From an uncultured Burkholderiaceae bacterium (lineage in GTDB: Bacteria > Pseudomonadota > Gammaproteobacteria > Burkholderiales > Burkholderiaceae), in NCBI GenBank assembly GCA_937871985.1, contig CALMPB010000222.1:1-14091 (forward strand): a stretch of DNA of 14,091 nt, given 5' to 3'. Shown here one piece after another: positions 4,093 to 14,049 of this stretch (position 1 is the first letter of the stretch; the number at the start of each line of letters is the position of its first letter). A program made the position numbers and the translations under genes. The notes beneath the pieces were generated by a model. That model was not told where the DNA came from, ran no database searches, and was given only the letters and a program-made list of their open reading frames with translations.

Positions 4093-4304
4093 TAATAGAG
4101 CTTTTGGGGGCAGGTATTAAATAAAAATACGTGCGGTATGTTGTGTGTAAAAGAGGTGAGCCCGCATTATAGGTGGGTACTGCTTTAGAGTATTTTGGCG
4201 CATGGGTTAGTGGTTTTGGTAGCGAGTGTATCTGCGGACGATACTCATTATCGACGTGCTATAACTGCTCTACTGATACCGACCTTTCGTTGGAGCATGA
4301 TATT
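4093..4304. other. Intergenic leader at the composition boundary
   Basis: These 212 bases between the flippase and the most credible starts of the next gene hold no recognisable gene. A GTG at 4173 opens the downstream frame, but the roughly 44 residues it would add are Cys/Ser-rich and soluble, sit before the first membrane helix, and have no ribosome binding site. I therefore treat this stretch as leader DNA. AT-rich patches around 4115-4129 could be part of a promoter, but no well-spaced pair of boxes stands out. No terminator hairpin was seen. Confidence 0.4.
4292..4295 (+). promoter_or_regulatory. Ribosome binding site (GGAG) supporting the TTG start at 4305
   Basis: GGAG lies 9 bases before an in-frame TTG at 4305. 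A second possibility is GAGAG at 4307-4311, 5 bases before the in-frame TTG at 4317. Both place the start just before a Lys-rich stretch and the first membrane helix, which is the expected layout for a membrane protein; the in-frame GTG at 4173 has neither signal. Confidence 0.4.
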
Positions 4305-6353
4305 TTGAGAGCCACATTGAAATATAAAAAGAAGGATGTTGTTCTAGCGGCTCAATTTCTCTTTATTGCTGCAGTAAGTCTTATTTCTATGGCTGCCGTA
4401 ATATTGGCAAAGCTTTATCACCTGATAGTGGCCCCGTCAGTTATTAACCTGTCAATAATACTACCAAGATATAGAAACGGGCTCATGCCAGAGCATGATG
4501 AACGTTTTGTATTCTTGTCTCTCGGAGTTGTTGTTCCTGTCGTTTTGCTAATAATTTGCGTAGTGGTCTTTCGCGGTAGCTTGCAGGATTTGAAGGGTAA
4601 TTCAGAGAGTAGAGCTGCCGTTACCCCTATCGCAATAGCGGTCTTGTTTATTTTTTTGTTTGCGGGATTTGAATTTAGTGGTTGGTTGAGGAACGGTATA
4701 TATGACTCAAAATCTTGTGAGCAAACCATTCTTATATTAATAGCTTGCTTTGTGAGTGCACTTTTTTGGTATTTTCTTATGGCATGTTGTCATTGGACAC
4801 ATAAAGCAATAATAAAGACGAAATTATATGTGGTATGGGCTATTTTTTTTGCTGCAATGTTGCTACAAGTCTTTTCTTGGCGAATAGTGGGGAGTAACTC
4901 CATAACTAATATAGGAGCGTGGCATGGTCATGTCGACGCTGTCATATACGCTCTTAGCCAAGTAATAGGTGGGAAAACGATACTTGCAGATTTACCATCA
5001 CAGTATGGATTGTTTCCAGAAATTCTTGCTCCCCTATTTAAGGTGTTTGGCCTTTCGATATTGTCGTTTTCCATTGTGTGTGCTGTGATGCAAATTACCT
5101 CTATGACGAGTGTGATGTATGTCTTACAACGACAAGTACGTGATCCGGCAATTAAGGTAGTTAGCAGTATAGCGTTTGTGATGATCACATTTGAGACTTG
5201 TTTATGGGCTATAGGTGTTGAGGAGCGTTATTTCCAGTATTGGCCAATCCGTTTTTTCTGGCCGGCCCTTTCTGTTCTTGCCTTTTATCATTACAGTCAG
5301 TTGCCTACGTTGAGACGTGCTCTGCTCGTCTCAATAGCAGGAACGATAGGGGCTTTGTGGAACATTGACTCTGGAATAATGATTGAGATGGCTTTTGCGG
5401 CCTTCCTTTTGTCAAAATTGGCTCTATTGTATGGAGCTCGGCGACATGAGGTGCGTAATTATCGATTGCATTTATTAAGCGCGCTGAGCCAACATCTAGC
5501 TGTTGGGTTGTTGATCGTTACTCTGTTTTTTTTCTATCTTGCCCTGAAATCATCATTGCCGATTCATTTAGCGTGGCTTTATGAATATCAAAGGATTTTT
5601 TATGATCTTGGATTCATGATGCTACCAATGCCTTTGTTTCCACACGCTTGGATGGTGGTGTTAGGTGTGTATTTGATAGGGATAATTGTTGCTTTTTCGG
5701 GGCTTGCGCAGTGGCCATGTAGTAAATCAATGGACAATATTTTGTTTCTATGTTTGCTTGGCTTTGGTCTATTTATTTATTATCAGGGGCGATCACACGT
5801 TCTAAATCTAATTACGGTGGCATGGCCTGCACTTATTGTTGCATCTATATTAGCAGATCGAGTAGTCAGAGCTGTGAAAGCTCAAATACTTTGTCGGGTG
5901 AATTTAGTCTTGCCAGCAGCGGCGTTAGCTATTCTTATGTTTTGTGCTTTACCATTTATCCTAGCAATCCCGAGATTTTATGGTGACGCTTTGTCAGTAT
6001 TACGTAATCGTAATGTAGTGAAGGATCGAGTAGTACATGATGAAATTAACTTTATTCGCTCTCATTCGAGTCGAGGGCAGGTGTGCGCTATTTTATCTTT
6101 ACGGCAGGGCATCTATTATGCAGAAACGGGACTGGTCTCACCGCTATTGGGGCCGGGTTATGTTGAAACTGTTTTACAGTCCGACCTTGATAACATGATT
6201 AATCAAATTAAAGTTGGTAAGCCTAGCTGTATTTTCTTAGGTTTGGGAGCAAGCGCCATCGATTTAGGAGGGAGAGAAGCGAAGATGTTTAATAGATACA
6301 AAGTTTATGCGACAAGTAGCCAAGGAACCATGCAATTGCTTTTATTAAAATAA
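4305..6353 (+). CDS. Large GT-C-like integral membrane protein, probable glycosyltransferase (start uncertain)
   Basis: From TTG 4305 the product is 682 residues, with about twelve or more hydrophobic segments; the frame is also open back to a GTG at 4173 (726 residues). TTG was preferred because GGAG lies 9 bases upstream and the first helix follows at once. The first large extracytoplasmic loop holds WHGHVDA (W206-A212, acid D211), then GGKTILADLPSQYGLFPE with SQYG at 232-235. A Gly-Lys-x-Leu...Asp...QYG pattern after an early Asp recurs in poorly characterised GT-C-like membrane proteins of surface-glycan loci, from my memory of the family. A hydrophilic C-terminal tail of about 130 residues ends the protein. 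Base composition is far more AT-rich than its left neighbours, which suggests separate acquisition. A GtrA homologue and a family 2 glycosyltransferase at the right edge could supply its lipid-linked donor. Wzy polymerase is an alternative. Confidence 0.6.
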   Translation: MRATLKYKKKDVVLAAQFLFIAAVSLISMAAVILAKLYHLIVAPSVINLSIILPRYRNGLMPEHDERFVFLSLGVVVPVVLLIICVVVFRGSLQDLKGNSESRAAVTPIAIAVLFIFLFAGFEFSGWLRNGIYDSKSCEQTILILIACFVSALFWYFLMACCHWTHKAIIKTKLYVVWAIFFAAMLLQVFSWRIVGSNSITNIGAWHGHVDAVIYALSQVIGGKTILADLPSQYGLFPEILAPLFKVFGLSILSFSIVCAVMQITSMTSVMYVLQRQVRDPAIKVVSSIAFVMITFETCLWAIGVEERYFQYWPIRFFWPALSVLAFYHYSQLPTLRRALLVSIAGTIGALWNIDSGIMIEMAFAAFLLSKLALLYGARRHEVRNYRLHLLSALSQHLAVGLLIVTLFFFYLALKSSLPIHLAWLYEYQRIFYDLGFMMLPMPLFPHAWMVVLGVYLIGIIVAFSGLAQWPCSKSMDNILFLCLLGFGLFIYYQGRSHVLNLITVAWPALIVASILADRVVRAVKAQILCRVNLVLPAAALAILMFCALPFILAIPRFYGDALSVLRNRNVVKDRVVHDEINFIRSHSSRGQVCAILSLRQGIYYAETGLVSPLLGPGYVETVLQSDLDNMINQIKVGKPSCIFLGLGASAIDLGGREAKMFNRYKVYATSSQGTMQLLLLK

Positions 6354-6576: not shown

Positions 6577-7563
6577 ATGCCATATGTAATACTGGCAAAT
6601 GCTAAAAAATTTGTAGCTGCGAGTGATAAAGTAATATTGCTTGAGGCCAGTGCCAACGGTATTGCCCTAGAATACAGTTGTCGAACTGGGCGTTGTGGGG
6701 TATGCAAAGCACAAGTCATTCAAGGTGAAACACTTTCTCTTCGGGCTGAAGAGGCGCTTACGCCTGAAGAGTTGCAGTCGGGAGTTATTCTGACATGCTG
6801 TCGTGCGGCAAATACAGATGTTGAGTTGGATATTGAGGATCTTGGTCGTTTGGCTGAAATAGCAATCAAAACAGTACCATGTCGCATCGATTTGCTTGAA
6901 AGGCTTGCGACGGATGTCATTCAGATCACCCTACGCCTTCCTCCCGCTAGCAGGCTCAATTATTTATCGGGCCAGTATGTCGATGTAATCTGGCAAGGTA
7001 ATCGTCGAAGCTATTCCATTGCTAATGCTCCGCGGGCGGATGGAAAACTCACTTTACAGGTTCGCCATGTTGAACAAGGACTAATGAGTCAATATTGGTT
7101 CGACGAGGCCAAAGTTAATGATCTGCTGCGGCTGGAGGGGCCGTTAGGCACATTTTGTCTTCGAACAGTGGAACCTAGTAACTTGGTCTTCCTGGCAACG
7201 GGTACCGGTATTGCTCCCGTAAAAGCCATGCTTGAAGAGTTGGCCATGTCTCCTGAGTTGGCTCTTGGCAAAAGCATTCATGTTTATTGGGGCGGGCGCT
7301 CCATTGGTGATATATATTGGCAGGCTGAGTTCAAAGGACTTAACGTGAGTTTTGTTCCTATTTTGTCTCGCCCATCTCATGATTGGAAGGGGCGGCGTGG
7401 GTATGTTCAGCAGGCTCTTTTAGATGACGAGATTGACTTAACCGATACTGTGGTTTACGCATGCGGTTCGGATGACATGATTCATTCGGCTCGTAAACAG
7501 TTGACGAATGCTGGATTACATCCGAAAAAATTTTACTCGGATGCTTTTGTTAGCTCGAATTAA
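6577..7563 (+). CDS. ddhD: CDP-6-deoxy-Δ3,4-glucoseen reductase (E3), ferredoxin-NAD(P)H reductase type
   Basis: A 328-residue iron-sulfur flavoprotein that passes electrons from NAD(P)H to the E1 dehydrase in 3,6-dideoxyhexose synthesis (RfbI/AscD/DdhD family). Domain order is clear. An N-terminal plant-type [2Fe-2S] ferredoxin domain has ligands C35, C40 and C43 in SCRTGRCGVC plus C74 (or C75). A FAD domain follows with RSYSIAN (144-150), where R-x-Y-S contacts the flavin. The NAD domain has GTGIAP (209-214) and ends with YACGSDDMI (294-302) and FYSDAF (319-324). Length matches the family. It is first of four genes in the order D-A-B-C, as in the Salmonella and Yersinia ddh clusters, and lies 12 bases before ddhA. 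That position separates it from other reductases with this architecture. The ATG has no visible ribosome binding site. Confidence 0.93.
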   Translation: MPYVILANAKKFVAASDKVILLEASANGIALEYSCRTGRCGVCKAQVIQGETLSLRAEEALTPEELQSGVILTCCRAANTDVELDIEDLGRLAEIAIKTVPCRIDLLERLATDVIQITLRLPPASRLNYLSGQYVDVIWQGNRRSYSIANAPRADGKLTLQVRHVEQGLMSQYWFDEAKVNDLLRLEGPLGTFCLRTVEPSNLVFLATGTGIAPVKAMLEELAMSPELALGKSIHVYWGGRSIGDIYWQAEFKGLNVSFVPILSRPSHDWKGRRGYVQQALLDDEIDLTDTVVYACGSDDMIHSARKQLTNAGLHPKKFYSDAFVSSN

Positions 7564-7575
7564 ACAGGATATTTC

Positions 7576-8349
7576 ATGAAAGCAGTAATTCTTGCTGGTG
7601 GCTTGGGGACTCGATTAAGCGAAGAGACTGGCATACGGCCAAAACCCATGGTCGAGATAGGTGGGAAGCCTATTCTTTGGCACATTATGAAAATCTATTC
7701 GTCCTATGGCATTAATGATTTTGTGATTTGCTGTGGCTACAAGGGTTATCTAATCAAAGAATATTTCGCTAACTATTTTCTACATATGTCTGATGTCACC
7801 TTTAACATGCGTGACAACACAATGAAGGTGCACGATAAGCGTGCAGAGGCCTGGAATGTGACGCTGGTAGATACCGGTGAGAATTCCATGACTGGTGGCC
7901 GTTTGCGTCGAGTTGCCGATTATGTAAAGGACGAGGAAAGCTTTTGTTTCACCTATGGCGATGGTGTTGGTGACATCGACATTAGTGCAACGTTGGCCTT
8001 CCATAAAAAGCATGGCAAGGCAGCTACATTGACTGCCACTTTTCCGCCTGGCCGTTTTGGCGCCTTGGATATCCGTCAAGGACAGGTCATGAGTTTTAAA
8101 GAAAAGCCGAAAGGTGATGGCGCCATGATCAATGGTGGTTTCTTTGTATTGAAGCCAGATGTTCTGAATTACTTAACGGATGACAGTACAACATGGGAGC
8201 AAGAGCCGCTAATGAGCCTAGCAGCCGAAGGCCAGTTGATGGCCTACGAGCATGCCGGTTTTTGGCAGCCCATGGACACATTGCGCGATAAGCATTTGCT
8301 TGAAGAGCTTTGGGATAAAGGTAGAGCCCCCTGGAAGACTTGGGAGTAA
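7576..8349 (+). CDS. ddhA: Glucose-1-phosphate cytidylyltransferase
   Basis: Converts alpha-D-glucose 1-phosphate and CTP to CDP-glucose plus diphosphate, the entry step to CDP-3,6-dideoxyhexoses (RfbF/DdhA/AscA). The 257-residue length is that of the family. The nucleotide-binding signature AGGLGTR lies at residues 7-13, followed by RPKPMVEIGGKPILWHIM (21-38), where K23 is the family's conserved lysine. FTYGDGVGDID (125-135) supplies the metal-binding acids (D129, D133). The YGINDFVICCGYKGYLIKEYF segment is near diagnostic for the cytidylyl rather than thymidylyl or uridylyl enzymes. AGGA at 7566-7569 is a reasonable ribosome binding site 6 bases before the ATG. It sits between ddhD and ddhB with tight spacing, so one operon is likely. 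Confidence 0.96.
   Translation: MKAVILAGGLGTRLSEETGIRPKPMVEIGGKPILWHIMKIYSSYGINDFVICCGYKGYLIKEYFANYFLHMSDVTFNMRDNTMKVHDKRAEAWNVTLVDTGENSMTGGRLRRVADYVKDEESFCFTYGDGVGDIDISATLAFHKKHGKAATLTATFPPGRFGALDIRQGQVMSFKEKPKGDGAMINGGFFVLKPDVLNYLTDDSTTWEQEPLMSLAAEGQLMAYEHAGFWQPMDTLRDKHLLEELWDKGRAPWKTWE
8342..8346 (+). promoter_or_regulatory. Ribosome binding site (GGGAG) fixing the ddhB start
   Basis: GGGAG ends 7 bases before ATG 8354. The reading frame is open further upstream to an ATG at 8252, but that would overlap ddhA by about 100 bases and add 34 residues ahead of the normal family N-terminus, so 8354 is the supported start. Confidence 0.7.
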
Positions 8350-8353
8350 GCCC

Positions 8354-9439
8354 ATGAAGGCTGTTGTGGATTCCGCTTTTTGGAAAGACAAGAAAGTCTT
8401 TCTTACTGGGCATACCGGCTTTAAAGGGAGCTGGTTGTCGCTTTGGTTGCAGCTTATGGGGGCAAATGTTAAGGGTTATTCGCTAGAGCCTCCCACTACT
8501 CCTGCTCTTTTCAATGAGGCATGTGTGGCAAAAGGAATGCAATCGCAGGTTGGGGATATCCGCGATGCAGAAACCCTACGCGCAAGCATGACGGGATTCA
8601 ACCCCGATATCGTGATTCACATGGCTGCGCAACCCTTGGTACGGTTATCGTATCGCGAGCCCATTGAGACTTACAGCACGAATGTCATGGGATCCTTGCA
8701 AGTTCTCGAGGCGGCACGGCAATGTACTAATTTGCGAGTAATCGTAAATGTGACTACAGATAAGTGCTATGAAAATCACGAATGGGAATGGGGATATCGT
8801 GAGAATGAGCCGATGGGCGGGCATGACCCATATAGCAACAGCAAGGGCTGTGTCGAGCTCATAACTTCAGCATATCGCAATTCGTTCTTCAACAATCCTC
8901 AAGGTGCTGCACTTGCTTCGGCTCGCGCCGGCAATGTGATTGGAGGCGGGGATTGGGCCGAAGACAGGCTTATACCTGATATTCTTCGCGCTTTCAGCTC
9001 CAATCAACCTGTAGTCATTCGCAATCCGAAGGCGACTCGGCCGTGGCAACATGTGCTGGAACCCTTGAGTGGTTATTTGGTACTGGCTCAAAACTTATGG
9101 ACTGGCGGTTCCAAATATGCAGAAGGATGGAATTTTGGGCCTAAAGACGAAGATGCGAGGCCCGTCGAATGGATACTCAACCGCATGGTTGAAACATGGG
9201 GGCCAGACGCCTCCTGGAGGTTGGACAGCGACCCCCAACCTCATGAGGCTCGCTACCTGAAGCTGGATATTTCCAAAGCTCGCTCACGATTGAGCTGGTC
9301 GCCTAGCTGGAATCTAGAAACCGCCTTGGTGCGGATCGTCAATTGGCATCGCGCTTGGTTGGCTCACGAAAACATCCATTCCGTTTGTATAGATGAAATC
9401 AGCGCATATGTGCGTGATATGTCTGTACAGGATAAATAA
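8354..9439 (+). CDS. ddhB: CDP-glucose 4,6-dehydratase
   Basis: An NAD-dependent extended SDR enzyme that converts CDP-glucose to CDP-4-keto-6-deoxyglucose (RfbG/DdhB/AscB). With the start at 8354 it has 361 residues, the family length. VFLTGHTGFKGSWLSLWL carries the GxxGxxG dinucleotide motif (G19-G25), and the helix after it is typical of CDP-glucose dehydratases. HMAAQPLVRLSYREP (89-103) is the family signature after the fourth strand. VTTDKCYEN (133-141) includes the T-D-K catalytic region, with D136 and K137, and Y160-S-N-S-K164 is the YxxxK pair. The ribosome binding site and the 4-base gap from the ddhA stop point to coupled expression. Its product is the substrate of the ddhC enzyme next downstream. 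Confidence 0.96.
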   Translation: MKAVVDSAFWKDKKVFLTGHTGFKGSWLSLWLQLMGANVKGYSLEPPTTPALFNEACVAKGMQSQVGDIRDAETLRASMTGFNPDIVIHMAAQPLVRLSYREPIETYSTNVMGSLQVLEAARQCTNLRVIVNVTTDKCYENHEWEWGYRENEPMGGHDPYSNSKGCVELITSAYRNSFFNNPQGAALASARAGNVIGGGDWAEDRLIPDILRAFSSNQPVVIRNPKATRPWQHVLEPLSGYLVLAQNLWTGGSKYAEGWNFGPKDEDARPVEWILNRMVETWGPDASWRLDSDPQPHEARYLKLDISKARSRLSWSPSWNLETALVRIVNWHRAWLAHENIHSVCIDEISAYVRDMSVQDK

Positions 9440-9464
9440 CACGAATTTTTATTAGGTAATATCA

Positions 9465-10778
9465 ATGACCCCCGATTTGTTCCGCAAGGAAATCAGTAAG
9501 CTCGTCGAGCAATACGCTCAGGTTGCGCTGGCCGCCAAGCCTTTTGTTGCGGGCGAAAGCGTTATCCCACCCTCAGGTAAAGTAATCGGCGCTTCCGAGC
9601 TACAGCTTATGGTCGATGCTGCGCTTGATGGTTGGCTGACCACAGGCCGTTTCAATGCCGAGTTCGAGAAAAAGTTGGCGGAGTTTCTTGGCGTGCAATA
9701 CCTGATAACGGTGAATTCGGGTTCATCCGCAAACTTGGTTGCATTCAGTACGTTGACCTCGCCAAAGCTAGGCGAGCGTGCAATCAAGAAGGGGGACGAA
9801 GTTATTGGTGTGGCGGCAGGTTTTCCCACGACGGTCAATCCTATCGTGCAGTTTGGCGCGGTGCCTGTTTTCGTCGACGTGGACATGGCGACTCACAACG
9901 TTGATGCCGATCTTATCGAAGCAGCTATCACGCCAAAGACAAAAGCGATCATGTTGGCGCATACATTGGGCAACCCGTTCAACTTGGGTAAGGTCAAAGC
10001 GCTTTGTAAGAAATACAATCTTTGGCTTGTGGAGGATTGCTGTGATGCACTTGGCGCTACCTATGACGGAAAATTAGTAGGCACCTTCGGTGATATTGCG
10101 ACGCTAAGCTTCTACCCAGCTCATCACATCACCATGGGCGAGGGGGGGGCGGTATTTACCAATGACCCACAACTCAAGCTGATTGCAGAGTCTTTCCGGG
10201 ATTGGGGGCGGGACTGTTACTGCGCTCCGGGTTGCGATAACACTTGTGGAAACCGATTCGGCCAGCAATTCGGTAGCTTGCCACAAGGATATGACCATAA
10301 GTATGTTTATGCGCATCTTGGCTATAACCTAAAAATCACGGATATGCAGGCAGCCTGTGGACTGGCGCAGTTGGACCGAGCCCAGGAGTTTATCGATACT
10401 CGTAAGCGTAATTTCAAGTTGTTGAAGGAGCGTTTAAGTAGTTTGTCGGAGTTTCTGGAAATCGCAGAGGCGACTCCCAATAGCGACCCATCATGGTTCG
10501 GGTTCCCTGTTACGCTTAAAGAAAGTGCCGGGGTGGCACGAGTCGATCTACTCAAGTTCCTGGATCAAAATAAAATTGGCACTCGTTTGCTCTTTGCGGG
10601 TAATTTGACGCGACAACCGTATTTCCAAGGCGTCGAGTATCGTGTCGTTGGCGAGCTTACAAATACTGACCGGACGATGAATCAAACTTTCTGGCTGGGC
10701 ATTTATCCAGGGGTAGGCATCGACCATTTTGAGTATGTTGGGCAAAAGCTGGAAGAGTTTTTTGGCATTGGGTTTTAA
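9465..10778 (+). CDS. ddhC: CDP-4-dehydro-6-deoxyglucose 3-dehydrase (E1), PMP and [2Fe-2S] enzyme
   Basis: A 437-residue member of the aspartate-aminotransferase-fold sugar enzymes (RfbH/DdhC/AscC). With DdhD it removes the C3 hydroxyl from CDP-4-keto-6-deoxyglucose, giving CDP-3,6-dideoxy-4-hexulose. The decisive feature is [16 protein letters not shown]: the usual PLP lysine is replaced by H220, the residue known in the Yersinia enzyme, so it is a dehydrase and not an aminotransferase. D191 in VEDCCDALG is positioned to hold the cofactor ring. Iron-sulfur ligands fit the known spacing C-x57-C-x-C-x7-C exactly: C193, C251, C253, C261. All catalytic residues I can check are intact. An unusual run of eight G (10142-10149) encodes part of the GEGGA turn right after the catalytic histidine. 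No strong ribosome binding site is seen before the ATG. Confidence 0.96.
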
Positions 10779-10868
10779 AAGGGCCTCCCAACTATGCAAT
10801 AGCCATTCTCGGTATGAAAGAGGAACGGCCAATCATCTAGCAAGTCTATAAAGCATCAAGGCAACAGG

Positions 10869-11837
10869 ATGAAGATAGCAATACTTGGGGCGACCAGTGA
10901 AATAGCTAAAGATTTGATTCGTTGGCTGTTGCGCGCGCCTGGATATGAGTGCGTTTTGTTTGCTCGTCGCCCGGATGCAGTAGCTACATGGCAGGCGGAA
11001 CAAGGGTTGCCAAATTGTTTTCCTGTTGGATGCTTTAATCAGTTGCTCGAAACCCCTGATTTCGATGCCATCATCAATTTTGTTGGTGTTGGCAATCCAG
11101 CGTTAGCTGCCCAAATGGGGGCATCAATACTTGACGTTACAGCAAGCTATGACGACTTGGCGCTTGCCTACGTCAAAAACCGTCCAGCTTGCCGCTATAT
11201 TTTTCTAAGTAGCGGGGCTGTTTATGGCGAAAACTTTGACGTTCCTGTTACTGATACAAGCCGCGCCATTTTCCCGATTAATGACCGTCAGATCACTAAT
11301 TGGTATTCGGTAGCGAAATTCTATGCGGAGATGCGACATAGAGCGTTATCGGAGCAGCCTATAATAGACATTCGAGTTTTTAATTATATTAGCCGCTATC
11401 AGAATGTAGATGCTCGTTTTTTACTTACCGATATGATAAGGGCAATTAAAGAGCCTACTATCTTTAAAACATCGACAAGCAATTTTTATCGCGATTATTT
11501 AAGTCCCGTAGATTTCTGCCAGATGATAGCTTGCGTATTAAATGGCCCGAATATAAATGCTGCCATAGACTGTTTTACCAAAGCGCCAGTCGACAAGCAT
11601 GGCTTGCTAAATAGCATGAGTCAGAGATTTGGCTTGGTGTACGAGTTTATGAAAGAGCCCGGTGACGCTAACATTACTGGGTTAAAGCCCAATTACTTTT
11701 CTACAAACCATTTGGCTACAGAGCTTTTTGGGTACACACCACAAAAAACAGCCTTGGAAGCGGTTATTGAAGAAACGGACGCAATACTAAACAGCAAAGA
11801 AGCAAGTGCGCCTAAAACGATAGGAATGGCGTCGTGA
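10869..11837 (+). CDS. Extended SDR oxidoreductase (NAD-dependent epimerase/dehydratase family), probable CDP-sugar reductase
   Basis: A 322-residue Rossmann protein. The N-terminal dinucleotide motif is the variant GATSEIA (7-13), with S10 and A13 where glycines are common. SSGAVYG (114-120) carries the SDR serine, and Y146-S-V-A-K150 is the catalytic YxxxK pair. In ddh clusters a gene in this place is usually the C4 reductase that completes abequose, paratose or ascarylose, but I could not match it to a particular synthase. It shares a 4-base GTGA overlap with the transketolase N-subunit, so its step is probably linked to that enzyme. My inference is reduction of a ketone on the branched sugar, as the reductase does in yersiniose synthesis. 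AAGG at 10858-10861 is a good ribosome binding site 7 bases before the ATG. SDR membership is certain; the substrate is inferred. Confidence 0.8.
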   Translation: MKIAILGATSEIAKDLIRWLLRAPGYECVLFARRPDAVATWQAEQGLPNCFPVGCFNQLLETPDFDAIINFVGVGNPALAAQMGASILDVTASYDDLALAYVKNRPACRYIFLSSGAVYGENFDVPVTDTSRAIFPINDRQITNWYSVAKFYAEMRHRALSEQPIIDIRVFNYISRYQNVDARFLLTDMIRAIKEPTIFKTSTSNFYRDYLSPVDFCQMIACVLNGPNINAAIDCFTKAPVDKHGLLNSMSQRFGLVYEFMKEPGDANITGLKPNYFSTNHLATELFGYTPQKTALEAVIEETDAILNSKEASAPKTIGMAS

Positions 11838-12667
11838 ATCCACTACCTAATGTAGATAAATTAGCGTTCAGCCCAACAGTGTTGCGCAAGCTGGTGTTGG
11901 ATATGGCATATGCGGGTTCGACCGTGCATATAGGTTGTGCCTTCTCAATCATTGAAATTTTGGCAGTGCTTTATCGTAGCTATTTACGTTATCCGAATAA
12001 TGATCCCAAAGCGGCAAATAGAGATTACTTGGTACTCAGCAAGGGTCATGGCGTGATGGCTCAGTACGCTTGCATGCACGAATTGGGGTGGATTAGCTCG
12101 GAAACGTTGTCGAACTATTTTTCGGATGGCAGTGAACTAAAAGGGCTGTCAGATTCTCGTGTCCATGGCTTGGAGGTCACATCAGGTTCGTTGGGCCATG
12201 GGTTTTCGGTAGGCGTCGGGCTGGCTATGGGCGCAAAGTTGAAGGGTACAGAGCAAAAAACGTATGCCTTAGTGGGCGATGGTGAAATTAATGAAGGCCC
12301 AATATGGGAAGGCGCCTTGTTTGCCAGCCATCATAATTTGAAGAATTTTATGGTTATAGTCGACGAGAATAATTTCCAGGCTATGGGCGAAACGAAAGAT
12401 ATATTGCGATTAGGCTCGATTCAAAACAAGTTTGAAAGTTTTGGTTTCGAAAGCCTGACTCTTGATGGGCACGATGAGGATGCTATCGATAGAGCTATCA
12501 AGCAACTATGGTCCAGCAAATCAAGCGCACCTAAGGCTCTTATCGCAAAGACAGTGAAAGGGAAAGGGGTGCCATTCATGGAGAATAATAATCTCTGGCA
12601 TTACACTCGCCTGAGCGCTGAAACCTACGCGTTGGCCCTGGCGGCCCTGGAAGAAGGTAAATTATGA
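11834..12667 (+). CDS. Transketolase-like enzyme, N-terminal (ThDP-binding) subunit
   Basis: A 277-residue protein equal to the N-terminal third of transketolase. The ThDP/Mg2+ motif is intact: V147-GDG (148-150) through E151-INEG and ending in DENN (177-180). The cofactor and substrate histidines are present: VHIG (H32), LSKGHG (H72) and GLEVTSGSLGHG (H122). The remaining chain gives the usual KTVKGKGVPFMENNNLWH segment. It starts at GTG 11834, inside the SDR stop (GTGA), with AGGA at 11822-11825 upstream, and its own stop overlaps the C-subunit start (ATGA). These overlaps imply stoichiometric, coupled synthesis with both neighbours. Transketolases move a two-carbon ketol unit from a ketose to an aldehyde. 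A split copy inside a sugar-nucleotide operon suggests a specialised acceptor rather than pentose phosphate metabolism. The family call is firm, the reaction inferred. Confidence 0.9.
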   Translation: MNPLPNVDKLAFSPTVLRKLVLDMAYAGSTVHIGCAFSIIEILAVLYRSYLRYPNNDPKAANRDYLVLSKGHGVMAQYACMHELGWISSETLSNYFSDGSELKGLSDSRVHGLEVTSGSLGHGFSVGVGLAMGAKLKGTEQKTYALVGDGEINEGPIWEGALFASHHNLKNFMVIVDENNFQAMGETKDILRLGSIQNKFESFGFESLTLDGHDEDAIDRAIKQLWSSKSSAPKALIAKTVKGKGVPFMENNNLWHYTRLSAETYALALAALEEGKL

Positions 12668-13587
12668 GAGCTGCTTTTTCAGAAGCCTTGGTTCGCCTTG
12701 CCCAAGCCGACCCCAGTGTATTATTACTAACTGGCGATCATGGTTACGCGCTTTTTGATGAATTTCGTCGTGTATGTCCTAGCCAGTATATCAATGCGGG
12801 GATCGCAGAACAGAATATGGTGGGAATGGCGGCGGGGCTGGCCCGTTCGGGATTTAGGCCGTTTGTTTATGGGCTAAGTGCATTTATCCCCGTTCGCGTC
12901 GTCGAGCAGATCAAGCTAGATATTGCGCACGATGAGCTTCCTGTGGTGCTGATAGGTGATGGTGCGGGTTTTGTTTACAGCCATTTGGGTACAAGCCATC
13001 AATCTACTGAAGATATTGCTTGCACTCGCGCTATTCCGCATCTCTCCATATATTCTCCTGGCGACAGATTTGAGCTTACCTCATGCATGGAATTAGCATA
13101 TCAGTCTGCTTCGCCCTGCTATTTTCGTATGGGTAAATCGGATCGCGGCGATGTGCATGTCCAAGTTCCAAATATAGAAGTGGGCAAGCTTCTAAATGTG
13201 AAACCAGGCCGGTCCAATGACATACTTTTTGTTGCTACGGGATCTATGTTGCGTACTACGCTTGATATAGCTACCCAACATTATCCGGATGTGGCCGTCT
13301 GGAGTGCGCCAATAATCAAACCTATTGACACGAAGCAACTTGTAGCGTTGTGTCGCGAAAGTTGCGCGGTGATAGTGGTGGAGGAGCATTCCGTAATGGG
13401 AGGGTTAGGCTCGTTGATTGCAGAAACAATCGCAGAGTTTGCACCCACCCGTTTATTGCGAGTGGGAGTGGAGGATAAATTCTCCCACTGCTGCGGTACA
13501 TATGAGTACTTATTGCAAGAGCACGGATTGGATAAAGGGACAATAATCAGGAAAATAGATGGCTTTCTTTCTGCTATGACGTTGTAA
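12664..13587 (+). CDS. Transketolase-like enzyme, C-terminal (Pyr and C-domain) subunit
   Basis: A 307-residue partner of the preceding gene, covering the pyrimidine-binding and C-terminal domains of transketolase. The essential glutamate that activates ThDP is E49 in INAGIAEQNMVGMAAGLA. TSHQSTED (110-117) gives the conserved active-site histidine H112, and YFRMGK (153-158) has R155 at the usual arginine position. The C-domain ends with VEEHSVMGGLGSLIAE, normal for this family. Two places look unusual compared with ordinary transketolases from memory: the segment before TSHQ reads GDGAGFVYSHLG (98-109) where SHAG...GEDG is typical, and GDHGY (24-28) replaces the common phosphate-contacting region. 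This may mean a different donor or a bulky acceptor. ATG 12664 overlaps the N-subunit stop by 4 bases, with AAGG at 12654-12657 as ribosome binding site. Confidence 0.9.
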   Translation: MRAAFSEALVRLAQADPSVLLLTGDHGYALFDEFRRVCPSQYINAGIAEQNMVGMAAGLARSGFRPFVYGLSAFIPVRVVEQIKLDIAHDELPVVLIGDGAGFVYSHLGTSHQSTEDIACTRAIPHLSIYSPGDRFELTSCMELAYQSASPCYFRMGKSDRGDVHVQVPNIEVGKLLNVKPGRSNDILFVATGSMLRTTLDIATQHYPDVAVWSAPIIKPIDTKQLVALCRESCAVIVVEEHSVMGGLGSLIAETIAEFAPTRLLRVGVEDKFSHCCGTYEYLLQEHGLDKGTIIRKIDGFLSAMTL

Positions 13588-13626
13588 GCCTCCGATGTAT
13601 CCAACATGTAATTTTTATTGTCGAAA

Positions 13627-14049
13627 ATGAGAGAAGCCCAGCTTAGCGCAATAAAGAGGTTAAGTAAAAAGCCCGCAGCGCTTATCAAATCCTCTCAGTT
13701 CCATCGGTATTTAATGGTCGGTTTATTAAATACTTTGTTTGGATATGGAATCTTTGCTTTATTGATTTACTTAGATTTTAGTTATCCGGTAGCTCTCTTG
13801 TTGGCAACCATCTTAGGTGTGCTGTTCAATTTTAAAAGCATCGGCATTCTAGTATTTGAGTCTCGCGACAATAAATTGATATTTCGATTTATAGTGGTGT
13901 ATGTAGTAATCTATCTTTTGAATCTGGCCGGACTTAAGCTGCTATCTATGGCGCATGTAAATATGTATGTTGCTGGCGCCATCTTACTCCCATTAATGGC
14001 CATTATTGGATTCGTAATTAATAAAAGGTTCGTTTTTAACCATGAATAA
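13627..14049 (+). CDS. GtrA-family membrane protein
   Basis: A 140-residue protein with a basic N-terminal tail and four hydrophobic helices, the size and topology of GtrA (PF04138). The family pattern is visible: FHRYLMVGLLNTLFGYGIF at the first helix, LGVLFNFKSIGILVF at the second to third helices, and GFVINKRFVF at the C-terminus. GtrA proteins are thought to flip or help supply undecaprenyl-phosphate sugars for periplasmic transfer, working with a GtrB-type synthase. Such a synthase appears to start at 14042, overlapping this gene by 8 bases. I chose ATG 13627 over an in-frame TTG at 13618; neither has a good ribosome binding site. It follows the transketolase pair by 39 bases on the same strand. 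The sugar carried is unknown. Confidence 0.9.
   Translation: MREAQLSAIKRLSKKPAALIKSSQFHRYLMVGLLNTLFGYGIFALLIYLDFSYPVALLLATILGVLFNFKSIGILVFESRDNKLIFRFIVVYVVIYLLNLAGLKLLSMAHVNMYVAGAILLPLMAIIGFVINKRFVFNHE

Follow-up and report, generated by a model that had tools for sequence, protein, structure and literature searches.

The window analysed here is a stretch of 14,091 nucleotides from an uncultured Burkholderiaceae bacterium (contig CALMPB010000222.1). It carries the genes ddhD, ddhA, ddhB and ddhC, followed by a gene for a short-chain dehydrogenase/reductase (SDR) and by two genes, called tktN and tktC here, which together encode a split transketolase-type enzyme dependent on thiamine diphosphate (ThDP). 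A preliminary description of this DNA had reported the set as intact and co-directional between positions 6577 and 13587, and both coordinates and family matches agree with it (Table 1). DdhA-D are known to produce cytidine diphosphate (CDP)-3,6-dideoxy-4-hexulose. DdhA, DdhB and DdhC each exceed the cut-offs of NCBIfam equivalog models, which identifies the core of a CDP-3,6-dideoxyhexose pathway. The closest solved relatives of DdhB, 1rkx (540 bits) and 1wvg, are both CDP-glucose 4,6-dehydratases, and the alignment of DdhC with 3bcx (759 bits), a CDP-4-keto-6-deoxyglucose 3-dehydrase of solved structure, runs from end to end. Like 3bcx, DdhC has histidine at the place of the pyridoxal phosphate lysine within an 11-residue stretch, where 3bb8 has lysine; its Cys-rich stretch also matches that of 3bcx. 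No NCBIfam equivalog model exceeded its cut-off for DdhD, whose name rests on domain make-up and position.

The three distal genes overlap one another by four bases each: the GTG start of tktN lies on the SDR stop (GTGA) and the ATG of tktC on the tktN stop (ATGA). The SDR shows the fold of nucleoside diphosphate-sugar SDRs, which alone does not reveal the substrate, and its Y146 and K150 are invariant across 22 aligned relatives. TktN and TktC carry the PP, Pyr and C-terminal domains together with ThDP/Mg residues, which places them in the transketolase superfamily; transketolase models from Pfam and NCBIfam fit them far better than E1 dehydrogenase models do. Their best solved relatives come from the split transketolase of Carboxydothermus: one chain, 6yak, for TktN (186 bits, E 5e-54) and the other, 6yaj, for TktC (159 bits, E 1.8e-45). 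They thus do not belong to the decarboxylase-superfamily (AHAS-like, acetohydroxyacid synthase-like) ThDP proteins that include YerE, the carboligase of yersiniose synthesis. A YerE-like gene had been noted as lacking, and an IlvI probe accordingly found no match within the window at E 1e-3.

Table 1. Genes of the dideoxysugar cluster in the window and its flanks.
Feature	Position	Strand	Basis
726-residue protein	4173-6353		upstream of ddhD; hydrophobic by eye
DdhD-like CDP-6-deoxy-glucoseen reductase (E3)	6577..7563	+	Pfam PF00111 (Fer2), PF00970 (FAD_binding_6), PF00175 (NAD_binding_1); place
DdhA, glucose-1-phosphate cytidylyltransferase	7576..8349	+	TIGR02623 equivalog, 479 bits (cut-off 300)
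DdhB, CDP-glucose 4,6-dehydratase	8351..9439 (start is an internal ATG)	+	TIGR02622 equivalog, 519 bits (cut-off 278)
DdhC (RfbH), CDP-4-keto-6-deoxyglucose 3-dehydrase (E1)	9465..10778	+	NF011936, 748 bits (cut-off 423)
SDR, proposed branch-ketone reductase	10869..11837	+	PF01370
TktN, N-terminal (ThDP diphosphate-binding) half of split transketolase-type enzyme	11834..12667	+	PF00456
TktC, C-terminal (pyrimidine-binding and C-terminal) half of the same enzyme	12664..13587	+	PF02779, PF02780
GtrA-like membrane protein	13618..14049	+	PF04138; GtrA matches also beside several related clusters

The preliminary description had proposed to search genomes for ddhC near split transketolase genes. 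A TktC scan of species genomes yielded 150 confirmed relatives, and the counts given here are from the best 80 (loci are designated L, genomes G). These span Proteobacteria, Chlorobi, Bacteroidota, Cyanobacteria, Spirochaetes, Planctomycetota and Actinobacteria; Paucimonas lemoignei DSM 7445 (L005) is one of the cultured carriers. The region upstream of tktN could be judged in 74 loci, the other six being too short. A ddhC gene with at least 45% identity to window DdhC lies on the same strand and at most 4 kb before tktN in 68 of these 74, and in 45 of the 68 no more than 300 bases separate the two; such linkage indicates that the association exceeds chance. A ddhC match lies somewhere on the fragment in 72 of the 80, and for seven of the other eight RfbH above cut-off is found elsewhere in the genome. 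Where both genes are complete, tktN and tktC abut or overlap in 70 of 78 loci. For comparison, RfbH above cut-off occurs in 29 of 200 genomes drawn from one order (28 of 199 without the selected genome G007). Three gene orders are found repeatedly: ddhABC-tktN-tktC-SDR; ddhDABC-tktN-tktC with a second SDR family behind it; and ddhABC, the second SDR family, then tktN-tktC. The window is a variant in which the SDR precedes tktN. Of the 70 loci with sufficient sequence downstream, 33 have the window's SDR family no more than 3 kb behind TktC. The second family comprises 19 SDRs and a third comprises 4.

A DdhD match is present on the fragment in just 11 of the 80 loci, and in 2 of 35 among those with the window's SDR family downstream, which suggests that in most loci the E3 reductase is encoded elsewhere or is of another kind. 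In Microcystis aeruginosa (L055, L056), tktN-tktC has a gene of the second SDR family and one for GtrA as neighbours on a fragment without ddhC, and RfbH is on another contig of the same genome. L147 carries, besides its TktN/TktC pair, a second TktC-like protein of 434 residues that lacks D469 (16438-17742).

The preliminary description had put the split pair in the place of YerE and the SDR in that of the reductase, and this part of its proposal is supported by clusters in which the same SDR family directly follows YerE. Neighbourhoods of 28 unselected ddhC genes were inspected for up to about 9 kb per side, several being cut by contig ends (L102 at 4.2 kb). They contain AHAS/YerE-like genes in ten cases, Tkt pairs of the window's family in two (L138, L147) and more distant Tkt pairs in another two (L137, L143); none of the 28 has both an AHAS/YerE-like gene and a Tkt pair on one stretch. 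The window's SDR family occurs in 8 of 399 genomes of the order, leaving seven unselected loci once G007 is removed. Immediately before the SDR stands yerE in five of the seven (L124, L136, L192, L193, L194), with ddhA, ddhB and ddhC upstream, and tktN-tktC in the other two (L138, L147). The spacing of ddhC and yerE is compact in L124, L192 and L194, about 1.1 kb in L193 and about 4.6 kb in L136; in L147, ddhC is positioned before ddhA. YerE of L124 matches 5ahk, which we take to be PpYerE, over its full length (603 bits), and those of L136, L192, L193 and L194 are 78 to 85% identical to it. PpYerE is a YerE homologue of solved structure (PMC12247030). The five YerE-linked rows of the SDR tree cluster with two Tkt-linked rows (support 96/80), nested inside the Tkt-linked set, and a minimum of two changes of partner is needed.

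Since the acceptor genes and the reductase are the same whichever of the two enzymes stands between them, TktN/TktC would perform the step of YerE; this exchange is the strongest evidence we have. In related clusters the pair shares the YerE-type position between ddhC and the branch reductase, while the window's SDR precedes tktN. The arrangement supports a C4 carboligase acting before a reductase, as in yersiniose synthesis.

Active-site residues were mapped in E. coli TktA numbering for the window and 79 loci per chain (L009 is without a complete TktN and L066 without a complete TktC). The ThDP-catalytic and Mg residues H66, D155, E160, N185, H261, E411 and H473 are kept in all 80 sequences, and H26 in 79 with one gap. 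Four substitutions are universal in the family (H100 to Leu, which is Leu105 in the window's TktN, H461 to Gly, D469 to Leu and F434 to Leu) and R520 is Lys in 79 of 80, the last having Arg, so that the set by which canonical pentose phosphate transketolases recognise the donor hydroxyl (H100) and the sugar and phosphate (H461, D469, R520) is absent from the family. S385 falls in a gap of the residue map and is Ala in the window by another alignment; it is not conserved and its alignment is unsure. A check independent of alignment found GL[SA]D in 79/79 TktN and LGxSHQ in 79/79 TktC, and neither GHP nor the canonical DGx[TS]HQ in any of the 79 TktN or TktC family sequences. Since all 80 were selected as relatives of the window, the pattern is to be counted as a family trait and not as 80 independent events; the unselected L138 and L147 pairs display it as well.

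Equivalents of H100, H461, D469 and R520 are retained in the Carboxydothermus split transketolase, as read from alignments. As a further control, in the 30 best-matching loci from the phylum of G003 (match in 68 of 396 genomes), the pairs outside the family keep H100 in all 26 cases with a readable N part and D469 in 16 of 29. More distant split pairs with a GSLGH motif (L137:12530-14238, L143:7081-8804 and L156-L163) keep H100 and have lost D469, and may be true ketol-transferring relatives. The pairs of L137 and L143 lie close to ddhC; the DdhC matches neighbouring those of L158, L161 and L162 reach just 29-33%.

Changes of this kind are familiar from enzyme engineering. The E. coli transketolase variant 6M, a stabilised enzyme with H100L and D469T, uses pyruvate (PMC10787763), and in a Geobacillus enzyme H100L (E. 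coli numbering) lifts activity on pyruvate to one third of the level of 1-deoxy-D-xylulose-5-phosphate synthase (DXPS; PMC7661550). In TKgst, changes of H102 (to G, L or T) and of H474 enable the use of aliphatic keto acids (PMC7696235). YerE itself takes pyruvate as donor and CDP-3,6-dideoxy-4-keto-glucose as acceptor (PMC12247030). With Leu for H100 and loss of D469, as in the engineered pyruvate users, the family looks like enzymes that by nature take pyruvate as donor and act on an unphosphorylated acceptor. A 4-C-acetyl branch, reduced to 4-C-(1-hydroxyethyl), is on these residues in our view more likely than a 1,2-dihydroxyethyl branch.

We therefore lean, by a modest degree, towards the following explanation: the cluster makes a C4-branched CDP-3,6-dideoxyhexose, with TktN/TktC in the place of YerE, a pyruvate-type donor and the SDR as reductase of the branch ketone. 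DdhA-D would supply CDP-3,6-dideoxy-4-hexulose. TktN and TktC, forming a single ThDP enzyme of the transketolase superfamily, would activate an alpha-keto acid, most likely pyruvate, and add the two-carbon unit onto the C4 ketone, which would give a tertiary alcohol with an acetyl branch. Reduction of the branch ketone by the SDR would then yield a 1-hydroxyethyl group, the product being CDP-yersiniose or a stereoisomer, and the branched sugar would be incorporated into a surface glycan. That TktN/TktC is a C4 carboligase is probable in our judgement; given that it is, a pyruvate-type donor is rather likely, at somewhat lower confidence. Gene content, recurrence, the interchange of TktN/TktC with YerE next to a single SDR family and the residue pattern are direct observations on the sequences. 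Acceptor, C4 position, donor, stereochemistry and reduction are the parts of the proposal that we infer.

Several points weigh against this explanation. Six of the 74 judgeable loci (L055, L058, L067, L068, L070, L071) have no ddhC within 4 kb, and the genome of L068 has just a weaker homologue that stays under the cut-off for RfbH. In the SDR tree 22 forks are open, the bootstrap had not settled and some branches are long, that of the window's row included; its starred branches force just one of the changes of partner. In a class-level draw, the SDR family was found in none of 368 unselected genomes. An AHAS-like gene is also present on the stretch in four of the 80 TktC loci (L015, L052, L054, L064), with 29 to 35% identity to L124 YerE. 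In L052 (11171-12892) and L054 (11274-13100) it lies directly behind tktC, which is odd for mutual replacement; these two clusters may use two ThDP enzymes. As to the donor, a hydroxylated one is possible, since the family retains H473, the second donor-hydroxyl residue, and has an invariant His in the place of Q118. The E. coli DXS row of the residue map shows Glu at the H100 place and is thus unreliable, since Phe is reported there (PMC7661550). The best engineered Geobacillus variant had H474 altered too, and pyruvate efficiency of the engineered enzyme was 0.01 per s per mM, as against 0.15 for E. coli DXS (PMC7696235).

The alternative that deserves most attention is the one favoured by the preliminary description, in which hydroxypyruvate or a ketose is the donor, TktN/TktC places its hydroxyacetyl (ketol) unit on C4 and reduction by the SDR gives a 4-C-(1,2-dihydroxyethyl)-3,6-dideoxyhexose. 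The retained H473 and the His at Q118 speak for it, and the YerE/Tkt swap fits a hydroxyacetyl as well as an acetyl branch. Ketol transfer, and phosphorylated donors in particular, nevertheless proved less well supported: H100 is Leu in 80/80, a change favouring pyruvate, and the residues at the sugar and phosphate end are altered. Better candidates for ketol transfer are the sister split pairs of L137 and L143, which lie near ddh genes in Burkholderiales and retain H100. Further, the SDR is common to YerE clusters, whose branch is acetyl if their YerE takes pyruvate. We regard this alternative as unlikely, though a serious competitor.

Less probable still is that the SDR is the C4 ketoreductase of an unbranched 3,6-dideoxyhexose and that the product of the pair is another sugar of that glycan or a precursor. 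SDR reductases also complete unbranched CDP-3,6-dideoxyhexoses, the fold is uninformative on the substrate, and the slot is occupied in 19 loci by the second SDR family. The gene order speaks against this: the pair is adjacent to ddhC in the 45 loci with gaps of 300 bases or less, the window's SDR overlaps tktN, and in 7/7 unselected loci the SDR family lies directly behind YerE or TktC. A last alternative is that the pair is an ordinary pentose phosphate transketolase in split form that lies in the cluster by chance. Such an enzyme would have the same domains, and the best solved relatives are indeed chains of a working split transketolase. Given that H100, D469, H461 and R520 are altered in the family and kept in the Carboxydothermus enzyme, and that linkage to ddhC extends across many groups, we consider it very improbable.

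The flanks of the cluster point to a surface-glycan locus. Upstream genes encode a flippase-type protein (PF01943), a family 2 glycosyltransferase, a protein with a weak PMT_2 match just under the Pfam cut-off and the hydrophobic 726-residue protein. The last had no match in comparison with Pfam and NCBIfam; it is possibly a polymerase or glycosyltransferase. The GtrA-like protein is accessory to glycan assembly, with no role in the branching step.

Replacement of the key enzyme in a pathway to a C4-branched deoxysugar would be a new aspect of a known pathway type. The preliminary description was aware of no characterised pathway of such kind, which is consistent with a 2025 review (PMC12247030). 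The review treats keto-sugar branching by transketolases in miharamycin and amipurimycin as a proposal that has yet to be shown; it gives 13 further split enzymes, all from Streptomycetes, as not characterised in vitro, and describes the addition of carbon units to ketones by transketolases as unproven. Among the titles and abstracts listed in searches of the open-licence literature, none joins ddh genes and a transketolase in glycan synthesis. If the proposal is true, the pair would be the first case of a natural transketolase that demonstrably accepts a ketone and forms a tertiary alcohol, and a further ThDP superfamily would join C-branching of surface sugars. It would suggest a route to C4-branched sugars without YerE in many environmental bacteria, and provide natural candidates for pyruvate-using transketolases yielding chiral tertiary alcohols. 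Evolution would then have fixed the H100 to Leu change and the D469 loss that laboratory engineers found for pyruvate use. In its widest form, a natural class of the transketolase superfamily in surface-glycan clusters of several phyla would acylate the C4 ketone with pyruvate in exchange for YerE, with both changes fixed; this we advance tentatively, at slightly less than even confidence. Since the family offers many sequences, a predicted acceptor and few candidate donors, and YerE beside the same SDR family provides a natural control, the question of ketone branching is directly testable.

Among known systems, the yersiniose pathway is closest. In both, DdhA-D lead to a CDP-4-keto-3,6-dideoxy acceptor on which a ThDP enzyme and an SDR would act, and the window's SDR family also occurs in YerE-containing clusters; the ThDP enzyme of yersiniose synthesis is the decarboxylase-superfamily YerE, whereas that of the window is a split transketolase-type protein. 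The miharamycin and amipurimycin systems of Streptomyces, compared by their published description (PMC12247030), likewise involve a split-gene transketolase proposed to branch a keto sugar. That proposal concerns antibiotic sugars, while the window holds a surface-glycan cluster with ddh genes. The split transketolase of Carboxydothermus hydrogenoformans (6yak, 6yaj) shares the two-chain layout and the ThDP-catalytic residues, but differs from the window's family in having His at H100 and equivalents of H461, D469 and R520, and is described with aldehyde acceptors. Engineered transketolases (E. coli 6M H100L/D469T; Geobacillus H102L/H474S) have, like the window, Leu at the H100 position and have lost the D469 acid; as described, they are laboratory variants acting on aldehydes, whereas the window's pair is natural and its predicted acceptor is a CDP-sugar ketone. 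Two-subunit ThDP enzymes also include the alpha-keto acid dehydrogenase 2 type (KbDH and relatives), which in antibiotics adds a C2 unit from pyruvate onto C3 or C4 keto sugars (PMC12247030) and which, unlike TktN/TktC, belongs to another superfamily.

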